This document shows, piece after piece, positions 46,262 to 51,165 of a DNA stretch of 64,000 bases (the stretch's first letter is position 1; the number at the start of each line of letters is the position of its first letter). The notes below the pieces were generated by a model. That model saw nothing but the letters and a program-made list of their open reading frames with translations. It was not told the origin of the DNA and made no database searches. This DNA comes from Bacteroidia bacterium (GTDB taxonomy: Bacteria > Bacteroidota > Bacteroidia > J057 > JAIXKT01). A program made the translations under genes and the position numbers. Where the stretch lies: NCBI GenBank assembly GCA_026932145.1, contig JAIXKT010000054.1:124001-188000 (forward strand), in the 5' to 3' direction.

Positions 46262-47207
46262 GATAATAAACTCTTGGCATAAGCACGCACTCGTAAAAAA
46301 GACTGTTGTAGGGCTAAAGAACTTTCAGCCGCCGGGCTTCGGCGGTGTAGGCTTGTTTTATGTGATTAAGTTATTTTGGAAAGACGTTAGGGATCCGGCC
46401 TTTGTTTTAAGGGCTAACGCAATGGCTTACAACTTTTTCTTTGCCTTGATTCCCTCCCTTATTTTTATTTTCACATTAGTTCCATACATCCCGATACCCA
46501 ATTTTCGGGAAACCGTTCATCAATGGCTTTCTACTTATTTGCCCCAAGAAGGGATTTCTCTGATAAACGGTATCATAAGCACCAGTTTTGAAAAACGCGG
46601 ATGGGGAGTTATTTCAATCAGTTTTTTGCTGCTTTTGTATAGCTCTACCCGAAGCATCATCACGATGATGGCTTGCTTCAATAAGCGGTATTTTTATCGC
46701 AGAAACGTTTTTCAAGAAAGACTTTTAGCAGTCGGAATCTTTTTTGTGTTATTTCTCTTATTAATTATTGGAGCCGCAGCCTTGATTTTTGGCGAGTTTG
46801 GCATCAGTTATTTAGGAAAACAGCACATTATAGGCGGAAAAGTCCCTTATTTTTTATTACATCTACTTAATTGGCTAATCAATTTACTACTGTTATTTGG
46901 CGTTCTTTCATTTATCTACTGGGCAGTTCCCTCAGTTGATAAAAAATTCCATAAGACAGGCCCCGGTTCGTTTTTAGCCGGATTACTGATGATGTTAGCT
47001 ACCATTGGGTTTCGTTTTTTTATTTCCAACTTTGGCAATTACAACAAAGTGTATGGTAGTTTAACCGCCGTTATCATTTTGTTGGTATGGTTTTACTGGG
47101 TTTCTATTGTTCTTTTAATTGGCTTTGAGTTAAATGCAAGTATCGAAAGAGCTGCCCGAAAAGGTACAAATCTTACGGAATTATTAGAGGTGGGTTCTAA
47201 AAATTAG
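46251..47207 (+). CDS. YihY/BrkB-family inner-membrane protein (C-terminus altered by an insertion)
   Basis: 318 residues from the ATG at 46251; a longer frame from 46200 lies within the previous gene. About six membrane segments and the family motifs ANAMAYNFFFALIPSLIF and YGSLTAVIILLVWFYWVSIVLLIGFELNA identify it. Function is not established (the old name RNase BN is wrong). The last codons, VGSKN and stop (47190-47207), coincide with the 18-nt left end of a deleted IS element, so the native C-terminal tail has probably been cut or replaced. The conserved core is complete. Confidence 0.85.
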   Translation: MIPKIINSWHKHALVKKTVVGLKNFQPPGFGGVGLFYVIKLFWKDVRDPAFVLRANAMAYNFFFALIPSLIFIFTLVPYIPIPNFRETVHQWLSTYLPQEGISLINGIISTSFEKRGWGVISISFLLLLYSSTRSIITMMACFNKRYFYRRNVFQERLLAVGIFFVLFLLLIIGAAALIFGEFGISYLGKQHIIGGKVPYFLLHLLNWLINLLLLFGVLSFIYWAVPSVDKKFHKTGPGSFLAGLLMMLATIGFRFFISNFGNYNKVYGSLTAVIILLVWFYWVSIVLLIGFELNASIERAARKGTNLTELLEVGSKN

Positions 47208-47783
47208 TTTTTTTTATTCTTTATTCGATAATTCACAACTAATTAATAGCATATTACGATGTAAATAGATTTAATCTTTGAACTTGTTCAAGCCTGAATA
47301 AGTTGTAGGTAAGATTGATGAGTTCGATTATACCTGTTGCTCTTGCTATTCCTACAGATTTAACAGCAAGCCCGTTCATGCTTTGTTCCATAAAATCAAA
47401 TACGTGTTCTACTCTTACCCTTGTTTTAGATTTTATCTTATTTTTTGCTTTTTGTTTATCCGTCAAAGGGTTACCTCTGTATCCTTTTTTGTGTATTTGG
47501 TTTTTAAGCCGGTATTTTCGGATTATTTTTTTGGTTTTTCTTTTCTGTATTTAATAAGTTAGATGCTAATGTGTTGCGAAATGCCTCAAAATCAACAACA
47601 TCGCTTATTATTTCTAATGGGTTGCCAATTGCAGACAAACGTTCAATAGTAAATTGCTCGTCAAATAATCCTTTTTGGCCATTGGTTTTATACTCTTGTG
47701 ATGTCATATTGTTTTCGTGTTAAATTATACGCAAATATACGTATAATTACTTGAATAACAATGATTTAAATTATAGAAGCCAC
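47190..47783 (-). mobile_element. Non-autonomous, internally deleted IS5-family element, copy 1
   Basis: 594 bp between inverted ends: GTGGGTTCTA at 47190-47199 and TAGAAGCCAC at 47774-47783 (one mismatch). It carries only the N-terminal and C-terminal parts of a transposase on the minus strand. About 510 bp are nearly identical to copy 2 at 50432-51165; the left arm is about 130 bp shorter than copy 2 (loss of an A/T-rich block and of most AACT repeats). No direct target duplication is visible (flanks TTAGAG and CTAAAA). Confidence 0.75.
47254..47707 (-). pseudogene. IS5-family transposase with catalytic middle deleted (copy 1)
   Basis: Two fragments on the minus strand. 47504-47707 encodes the N-terminus (EYKTNGQKGLFDEQF, IGNPLEIISDVVDFEAFR). 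47254-47466 encodes the C-terminus (KSKTRVRVEHVFDFMEQSMN, GIIELINLTYNLFRLEQ), which includes the glutamate helix of the DDE site. The intervening ~200 residues with both catalytic aspartates are missing and the two parts are out of frame. Apart from the final residue the peptides are identical to those of copy 2. Confidence 0.8.
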
Positions 47784-47788
47784 CTAAA

Positions 47789-47987
47789 ATGAATAAAGAG
47801 TTTGAAAAATTTATCGAACAAACAGAAAAATTAATGACTGCAAGTGAAAAATATGTTTCGGGAGCAGAAAAGGAACTTGACGACCACGAAGTAGCAGCGA
47901 AGCTAATTTTGCGACAGCTACTTTGCAAATGATACAGATGTAGAAAATTATTGCAAAGAAAAGCATATCCCTATAAATGAGGATTAA
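47789..47987 (+). pseudogene. Frameshifted small ORF
   Basis: A 47-codon frame from the ATG at 47789 stops at 47930-47932. In another frame a coherent acidic C-terminus (SYFANDTDVENYCKEKHIPI, then NED) continues to a TAA at 47985-47987. Joined by one frameshift near 47915 the parts would make a ~65-residue helical protein. The gene begins 6 nt outside copy 1 of the deleted IS element. It may be a decayed gene or a programmed frameshift; no family was recognised. Confidence 0.4.
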
Positions 47988-48068
47988 GAAACAGCTGCCA
48001 TCCTTAAATAAATTAGCAAAACTTGTAAAAAACGCAAGTTTCGCTAATTTATTTTGCACTTTTGTATT

Positions 48069-49304
48069 ATGAAAAATTATACTAACCGTAAGGAATATAT
48101 AGAAAAACTGCTGTCATATAAGGATAAAGACCTTATAAAAGTAGTTAGCGGTTTACGTAGGTCGGGCAAATCGACACTTTTGGAATTGTATTGGGAGCTG
48201 TTACTTAAAGCAGGTGTTGGTAAACGACAAATTCAGTTCTACAATTTTGAGTTACCCGAAAATTTTGTAGGAAAAAATTGGGACGACATTTATTTTGACA
48301 TCAAAAAGAAGTTACAAGCAGATAAGCCTAACTATATATTTTTGGACGAAGTACAAAACATTCCATTGTTTGAAAAATTGGTGGACGGACTGTTCGCATC
48401 CAAAAATGTGGACGTTTATATCACAGGCTCAAACGCCTTTCTATTATCAAGTGAATTAGCCACTTTGTTAAGCGGTCGCTACATCGAAATTTCAATTTTA
48501 CCCTTTTCATTCAATGAATATTTAACGGCACGAGGCATTGACATTAGTAACAAATACTTGAACTACGAACCTTTATTTTTTGATTATGTAAATGAAACAT
48601 CATTGCCCAAAGGCGTAGCATTGCGTAAAGACGGCTATGATAAAATTTACGAATATCTGGAAGCTATTTATACGACTATTGTAGAAAAAGATATTACACA
48701 ACGACACCAAATAAACGATAAAAGAGCATTTGAAAACATTGTTAAATTTATGGCTTCAAATGTGGGAAATGCTCTTTCTCCAAATAATATCTCAACTATT
48801 TTGAAACAAGATGGGCAAAGCATTCATCGAGATACTGTTGAGAAATATTTGGGATATTTGGTAGCAAGTTTTGTATTCTATAAAGTAAACCGCTTTGACC
48901 TAAAAGGCAGAAAACAATTAGCTACACAGGAGAAATATTACTTGGTAGATATGGGACTGCTAAATATTTTTATGGGTAAAGAACGTACTAACGACAGAGG
49001 GCATATTTTAGAAAACATTGTTTACTTGGAACTACTTCGCAGAGGTAATAAAATCTGGACAGGAACAAGTAGAAACAGCGAAGTCGATTTTGTTTGTAAA
49101 ACCAAAACTGGAGATATTGAGTATTATCAAGTAGCTTGGCAGATGACTAACGAAAGTACCGTAGAACGTGAATTTGGGGCATTAGAAAAAATAAATGATA
49201 ACTATCCTAAATATTTGCTCACAACTGATGGATTTACGCAAAACCGAAGTGGAATACAGCATTTAAACGTATTTAATTGGTTGCTAAACACAGACAGAAA
49301 ATAA
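48069..49304 (+). CDS. AAA-family ATPase with DUF4143 domain
   Basis: 411 residues from the ATG at 48069; a TTG five codons upstream is less likely. Walker A is GLRRSGKST at 28-36 and Walker B NYIFLDEVQN. The AAA_14 core is followed by a DUF4143 domain whose end, ENIVYLELLRRG with NSEVDFVCKTKTGDIEYYQV, resembles a PD-(D/E)xK nuclease-like fold. Such proteins are common, mobile and of unknown role. The coding sequence looks intact. It lies within the segment bounded by the two deleted IS copies. Confidence 0.88.
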   Translation: MKNYTNRKEYIEKLLSYKDKDLIKVVSGLRRSGKSTLLELYWELLLKAGVGKRQIQFYNFELPENFVGKNWDDIYFDIKKKLQADKPNYIFLDEVQNIPLFEKLVDGLFASKNVDVYITGSNAFLLSSELATLLSGRYIEISILPFSFNEYLTARGIDISNKYLNYEPLFFDYVNETSLPKGVALRKDGYDKIYEYLEAIYTTIVEKDITQRHQINDKRAFENIVKFMASNVGNALSPNNISTILKQDGQSIHRDTVEKYLGYLVASFVFYKVNRFDLKGRKQLATQEKYYLVDMGLLNIFMGKERTNDRGHILENIVYLELLRRGNKIWTGTSRNSEVDFVCKTKTGDIEYYQVAWQMTNESTVEREFGALEKINDNYPKYLLTTDGFTQNRSGIQHLNVFNWLLNTDRK

Positions 49305-50414: not shown

Positions 50415-50574
50415 TTGTTGTTTGCCTATAGGTGGGTTCTAAAAATTAGTTTTTTTATTTTTTTCAGAAACAAATCAGAATCCTTTTAAAATCTGGGCTG
50501 AAAAAGTAAGTAATTATACAAATTATTTTTTTAATTCACATACAAAATTTTTATTTTTTTATTCAATAATCCAC

Positions 50575-50628
50575 AACTAACTAACTAACTAACTAACTAA
50601 CTAACTAACTAACTAACTAACTAACTAA
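50575..50628 (+). repeat. AACT tetranucleotide tandem repeat (13.5 copies)
   Basis: Thirteen perfect AACT units from 50575 to 50626 plus two bases, inside the left arm of deleted-IS copy 2. The matching place in copy 1 has a single AACT followed by AATTAA, so the tract has expanded or contracted since the copies separated. It is non-coding. Confidence 0.95.
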
Positions 50629-50635
50629 TAGCATA

Positions 50636-51089
50636 TTACGGTGTAAATAAGTTTAATCTTTGAACTTGTTCAAGCCTGAATAAGTTGTAGGTAAGATTGA
50701 TGAGTTCGATTATACCTGTTGCTCTTGCTATTCCTACAGATTTAACAGCAAGCCCGTTCATGCTTTGTTCCATAAAATCAAATACGTGTTCTACTCTTAC
50801 CCTTGTTTTAGATTTTATCTTATTTTTTGCTTTTTGTTTATCCGTCAAAGGGTTACCTCTGTATCCTTTTTTGTGTATTTGGTTTTTAAGCCGGTATTTT
50901 CGGATTATTTTTTTGGTTTTTCTTTTCTGTATTTAATAAGTTAGATGCTAATGTGTTGCGAAATGCCTCAAAATCAACAACATCGCTTATTATTTCTAAT
51001 GGGTTGCCAATTGCAGACAAACGTTCAATAGTAAATTGCTCGTCAAATAATCCTTTTTGGCCATTGGTTTTATACTCTTGTGATGTCAT
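50636..51089 (-). pseudogene. IS5-family transposase with catalytic middle deleted (copy 2)
   Basis: N-terminal fragment 50886-51089 and C-terminal fragment 50636-50848, with the same junction as in copy 1. Reading past the stop of the first fragment, another frame continues as KNQIHKKGYRGNPLTDKQKA into the C-terminal fragment, showing where the ancestral protein resumes after the deletion. Neither copy can make an active transposase; movement would need a full-length relative elsewhere. Confidence 0.8.
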
Positions 51090-51165
51090 ATTGTTTTCGT
51101 GTTAAATTATACGCAAATATACGTATAATTACTTGAATAACAATGACTTAAATTATAGAACCCAC

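Follow-up and report, generated by a model that had tools for sequence, protein, structure and literature searches.

The window, a stretch of 64,000 nucleotides on a large contig of the draft genome of a Bacteroidia bacterium, contains two non-autonomous derivatives of an IS5-family element that flank a 2.6-kb cargo. The left copy, W1 (47189–47784), is 596 bp long and has the ends GGTGGGTTCTA...TAGAAGCCACC, and the right copy, W2 (50431–51165), is about 735 bp long. They lie in the same orientation and are 98.3% identical across 596 aligned positions, and their common internal part of about 537 bp differs by 6 substitutions; W2 has about 95 bp on the left that W1 lacks, and most of its ACTA repeats are likewise missing from W1. 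In each copy, an IS5-type transposase frame on the minus strand survives only as its N-terminal and C-terminal pieces (C-terminal 47254–47466 and N-terminal 47504–47707 in W1; 50636–51089 in W2), and an identical deletion has removed the middle of the frame with its catalytic centre. The C-terminal piece in W1 matches DDE_Tnp_1 (Pfam). An earlier note had described two co-oriented, nearly identical copies of 594 and 734 bp that share the loss of the transposase centre, and the measurements agree with it. ACTA tandem repeats occupy 50570–50628 within W2, and on contig C37 such repeats are invaded by another element copy.

Upstream of the cargo, a gene for a BrkB/YihY-family membrane protein (46200–47207, plus strand; PF03631, 8.4e-55) runs into W1. 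Because W1 supplies its last codons and stop codon (47189–47207), the C-terminus of this protein may be altered. On the other side, W2 adjoins a repeat (51169–51327) with similar sequences in C43, C21 and the start of C1, which from its translation is probably a remnant of an IS1-family element. At the start of C1, this IS1-like repeat again abuts a copy of the IS5-type element.

The cargo corresponds to what the earlier note had listed: behind a broken small ORF come an AAA_14/DUF4143 gene and a DUF6348 gene, with a hairpin island between the two. The small ORF (47790–47987, plus strand) is frameshifted and directly followed by CAGCTGCCA, which resembles the cut-off start of an R'' box; judged by its sequence, the ORF is probably the remnant of another cassette gene. 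The AAA_14/DUF4143 ATPase gene (48072–49304, plus strand; Pfam; alternative TTG start at 48054) is preceded by a palindrome (48006–48054) that is conserved in this position across Bacteroidota. A palindrome of about 40 nucleotides also stands before AAA_14/DUF4143 genes across phyla (L228, L232–L234, L247, L259), and in some genomes it is found on both sides of the gene, an arrangement that would suit an independently mobile gene. The DUF6348 gene (49659–50414; PF19875, 8.1e-49) lies on the minus strand.

The hairpin island between the two genes holds two oppositely oriented attC-type sites, one just after each gene. Both are matched by model R1, which gives inflated scores on sites of this genome because it was built from an alignment of 16 family members from the same genome, and of which the E-values are rough. 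Site 1 (49312–49449, plus strand; 104 bits, E 3e-26; fold z −2.6) starts 8 bp past the AAA stop codon and has the R'' box CTGGCTATAAC and an R' box without GTT. Site 2 (49516–49652, minus strand; 87 bits, E 3e-21; fold z −3.0) starts directly past the DUF6348 stop codon and has the R'' box CCTACCGCCAAC and a possible R' box GTTCCGATG. Hairpin 1 (49438–49470; fold z −8.1) overlaps the 3' end of site 1, and hairpin 2 (49486–49532) has the minus-strand sequence GTTCCGATGTGG...CCACATCGGAAC, which is what a mini-cassette without a gene would show. A search of 46000–53000 against Rfam gave no real match.

The two sites belong to a large family. Searches with R1 detect at least 60 sites in the source genome and find sites in 23 of 40 genomes searched. 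In the alignment, 14 of the 18 pairs of the stem covary with pairing kept, and in most sites the R'' box resembles CTAAC and the R' box reads CGTT. The features by which attC sites are recognized, namely a bulged imperfect stem, the R'', L'', L' and R' boxes and a GTT in R', are thus present at the level of the family. On each of contigs C20, C26, C53, C59, C19, C1 and C52, the sites share a single orientation.

An integron cassette is recognizable by its two ends: the R' box at its start is matched by the R'' box at its end. When the expected 9-mer was sought 150–7000 bp upstream of the 52 sites with enough upstream sequence, a word complementary to R'' was present at 30 of them, compared with 59 of 2614 (2.3%) for words taken from other sites and 4 of 46 downstream. 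This comparison is independent of R1 scores, but the sites themselves were found with R1. A looser earlier test, which paired only successive model hits and so missed cassettes preceded by a 278-bp gene-less unit, gave 10 of 30 versus 1 of 32. Nearly all listed matches follow the end of an attC-type site or of this 278-bp unit; the exceptions are the match of C59:8190, which is not behind such an end, and that of C26:4467, which could not be placed. The array sites therefore show the complementarity between the end and the start of a cassette that characterizes integron gene cassettes. The 278-bp unit, which starts with GTTGAGCGACATT and contains AATGTCGCTCAAC together with an attC-like remainder, is present in 22 full copies of 98–100% identity (C26, C20, C53, C59, C14, C60, C24). 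Some of these gene-less cassettes are in tandem and many stand directly behind different attC-type sites. Because the array contigs are short draft pieces and the estimated contamination is 3%, some of them could be foreign; the large contig of the window itself holds two attC-type sites.

Relatives of the AAA gene share 69–90% identity with it at 80 loci kept from the genome scan, mostly in Bacteroidota, and flanking IS5 elements were seen at none of them. An attC-type site lies within about 35 bp after the gene at L195, L201, L218, L226, L236, L243, L251 and L254, that is, in at least 8 other genomes, with low model scores at L195 (26 bits), L201 (24 bits) and L251 (22 bits). At L218, L226, L251 and L254, both cassette ends are readable and match. 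For the DUF6348 gene, a search of 246–247 genomes returned one distant relative only. The putative cassette origin of the AAA gene is supported from outside the source genome, and that of the DUF6348 gene is not. Within the window, the AAA gene and the DUF6348 gene both lack the expected cassette start (GTTATAGCC, GTTGGCGGT) on their upstream side. Because these starts are absent and there is no GTT in the R' box of site 1, the window cassettes are remnants rather than intact units, and we interpret the two genes as damaged and stranded cassettes that meet at their tails. Integron arrays rarely contain convergent cassettes, which counts against this reading.

A candidate for the recombinase is encoded on C15. 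No IntI above the TIGR02249 cut-off was detected in the source genome or in 149 genomes searched. The C15 tyrosine recombinase gene (C15:5437–6591, minus strand) is followed by cassettes on the plus strand. The first cassette begins with GTTAGCCG at 6679, 88 bp from the recombinase gene, beside which an integron would have its attI site and a cassette promoter. It is closed by an attC site at 8407–8543 (plus strand) with the match CGGCTAAC. The second cassette has perfect ends, GTTACCACCA and TGGTGGTAAC, and its attC site lies at 9519–9658 (plus strand). The protein scores 188 bits on TIGR02249 (cut-off 265) and 217 bits on NF040815 (cut-off 220). Its alignment with VchIntIA (2a3v) consists of two stretches, between which the C15 protein is about 43 residues shorter, in the region of the IntI-specific insertion; the additional domain that defines an integron integrase is not present in the C15 protein. 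The spacing from the catalytic Lys motif to the His motif is 60–62 residues in the eight such proteins measured. Related recombinases adjoin attC sites in genomes G030, G004, G023, G029 and G039. Two further copies of a recombinase gene lie on C19 (100724–101584 and 118251–119111) beside an IS91-like transposase gene; they were initially regarded as IS91-type passengers, but each stands about 100 bp from an attC-type site, divergent from the array. C15 carries an integron-like platform headed by a XerA-like recombinase without the IntI-specific insertion, and the C15 protein may be the one that moves the cassettes.

The IS5-type element or pieces of it occur at about 11 loci of the source genome, including the window. 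A third copy (C37:1456–2155) has the same deletion junction as W1 and W2, and therefore the short form has been copied as a unit. A shorter form of about 410 bp is present in C1 and C33, so that several deletion forms coexist. A duplicated segment of 1741 bp in C1 (33913–35653 and 38186–39926; 99.7% identity) contains a short form. These observations bear out the earlier note, in that the elements are multicopy, non-autonomous IS5 derivatives of which the short form was duplicated in one piece. The note had called for a search for a full-length parent with the same ends. No full-length transposase was seen in the source assembly, but genome G148 has a full-length relative (L274) of 344 residues with DUF772 and DDE_Tnp_1 domains, the same terminal sequence and the GGTGGGTTCTAAAAATT end. 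With the DDE_Tnp_1 piece of W1, the domains of this relative and the shared terminal repeats place the elements in the IS5 family. An attC-type site lies 2 bp from the element in C25, 52 bp in C37, 779–1528 bp in the window and about 1.3–1.8 kb in C1, and for the copies in C33, C55, C50 and C56 no nearby site is on record. Because about 7% of the genome is within 2 kb of a known site by our estimate, an association at 4 of about 11 loci is no more than suggestive.

The earlier note had proposed that the locus resembles a composite transposon built from MITE-like ends. If a transposase encoded elsewhere had mobilized W1, W2 and the 2.6-kb cargo together, near-identical co-oriented copies at each end would be expected, as observed, and there is a precedent in Acinetobacter, where MITE-flanked class 1 integrons have a 5-bp target repeat around the whole unit (PMC3934969). 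However, the outer flanks of the W1–W2 pair read TTAGA and TATAA or ATAAG, with no target duplication, and W1 on its own has none either. W2 alone bears TATA on both sides (50427–50430 and 51166–51169), the same repeat that apparently flanks the full-length relative in G148; because target duplications are mostly not clear at other copies, the length of the duplication is judged from these two cases. The absence of a full-length transposase from the source assembly also argues against such transport, as do the AAA homologues that occur in other genomes without the elements. Thus, the composite reading is unsupported and we regard it as improbable; most likely, W2 inserted independently and the pair is no composite transposon. 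One of the observations that the note had named as speaking against this proposal, the same cargo in relatives without the flanking copies, holds for the AAA gene at its 80 other loci but not for the DUF6348 gene, which has its relative in 1 of 246–247 genomes, and the two genes of the cargo were not found together in any other genome searched. Recombination between the direct repeats W1 and W2 might still remove or duplicate the cargo. A different use of the copies, in which the fragment entered by homologous recombination between dispersed IS5 copies, one of them already next to a cassette array, is somewhat unlikely. The copies that border or cut attC-type sites in C37 and C25 and lie near the C1 arrays are in agreement with it, and so are the missing target duplication of W1 and the recurrence at the start of C1 of the junction between W2 and the IS1-like remnant. 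However, the TATA flanks of W2 match, as in a simple insertion, and there is no second copy of the AAA gene in the genome, hence no donor array for that gene was found.

The repeats could also be REP-like or terminator hairpins rather than recombination sites, because they form hairpins just 3' of stop codons and two further hairpins lie between them. Such hairpins would not account for cassette-end complementarity at 30 of 52 sites against the 2.3% background, for the one orientation in each array, or for the R'' and R' boxes and the conserved bulged stem, and this alternative is highly improbable. It is rather unlikely that the system is an ordinary integron with a canonical IntI gene that the assembly failed to capture, the C15 recombinase being unrelated to it. 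The assembly is a draft of 66 contigs and the arrays break contigs, which would be compatible with such a loss. However, none of the 149 genomes has an IntI above the cut-off, though sites occur in 23 of 40, and C15-type or related recombinases adjoin sites in six genomes.

Taken together, it is likely that the cargo is a stranded fragment of an integron-type cassette system at a chromosomal site, beside multicopy transposase-dead IS5 derivatives, and that the cassettes of the arrays move by means of a XerA-like recombinase. In this reading, the AAA_14/DUF4143 and DUF6348 genes are the two cassette genes, each followed by an attC-type site, and they converge on the hairpin units between them; elsewhere in the genome, sites of the same type separate cassettes in long co-oriented arrays. 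The sites and their covariation, the cassette-end matches, the arrays and the layout of C15 are observed directly, whereas the recombination, the enzyme responsible for it and the route by which the fragment came to this locus are inferred. The cassettes would most likely move by IntI-like recombination of folded attC strands, performed by a XerA-like tyrosine recombinase such as that on C15. The genome thus probably holds a non-canonical integron. More tentatively, Bacteroidia may own an integron class with attC-type arrays, a XerA-like recombinase without the IntI-specific domain, spreading gene-less cassettes, and IS5 derivatives that break cassettes out into the chromosome. Most of what is known of gene exchange by integrons concerns other bacteria. 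Activity of the C15 recombinase on these sites would mean that cassette exchange extends beyond its present definition, and it would make the need for the extra IntI domain directly testable. No integron with a non-IntI integrase in Bacteroidia was found in the open-access literature, which is no proof of absence.

The system can be compared with several known ones. It is like sedentary chromosomal integrons and CALIN in its gene-plus-attC units, co-oriented arrays, R''/L''/L'/R' layout and cassette-specific matching of R' and R''. It differs from them in that its recombinase has no IntI-specific insertion, the two window cassettes are damaged and converge, and the host class is one from which few such integrons have been reported; a survey with IntegronFinder reported integrons to be rare in Bacteroidetes (PMC9024848). 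The IntI-specific additional domain is treated as the defining feature of the integron integrase and is the one for which IntegronFinder searches (PMC9668308), so that arrays served by a different recombinase would escape notice or be classed as CALIN. The flanked cargo resembles the Acinetobacter MITE-flanked class 1 integrons, in which integron material lies between two co-oriented short non-autonomous elements (PMC3934969), but the window unit has no surrounding target repeat. W1 and W2 resemble the IS5 family and its MITE-like derivatives in the DUF772 and DDE_Tnp_1 domains of the full-length relative, in the common terminal repeats and in the internal deletion, whereas they are unlike them in the lack of an autonomous copy in the same assembly and in the multiplicity of deletion forms. 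The C15 protein is like XerA/XerC-like tyrosine recombinases in scoring just under the NF040815 cut-off (217 versus 220 bits), but unlike them it has about 110 extra N-terminal residues and sits by attC arrays.
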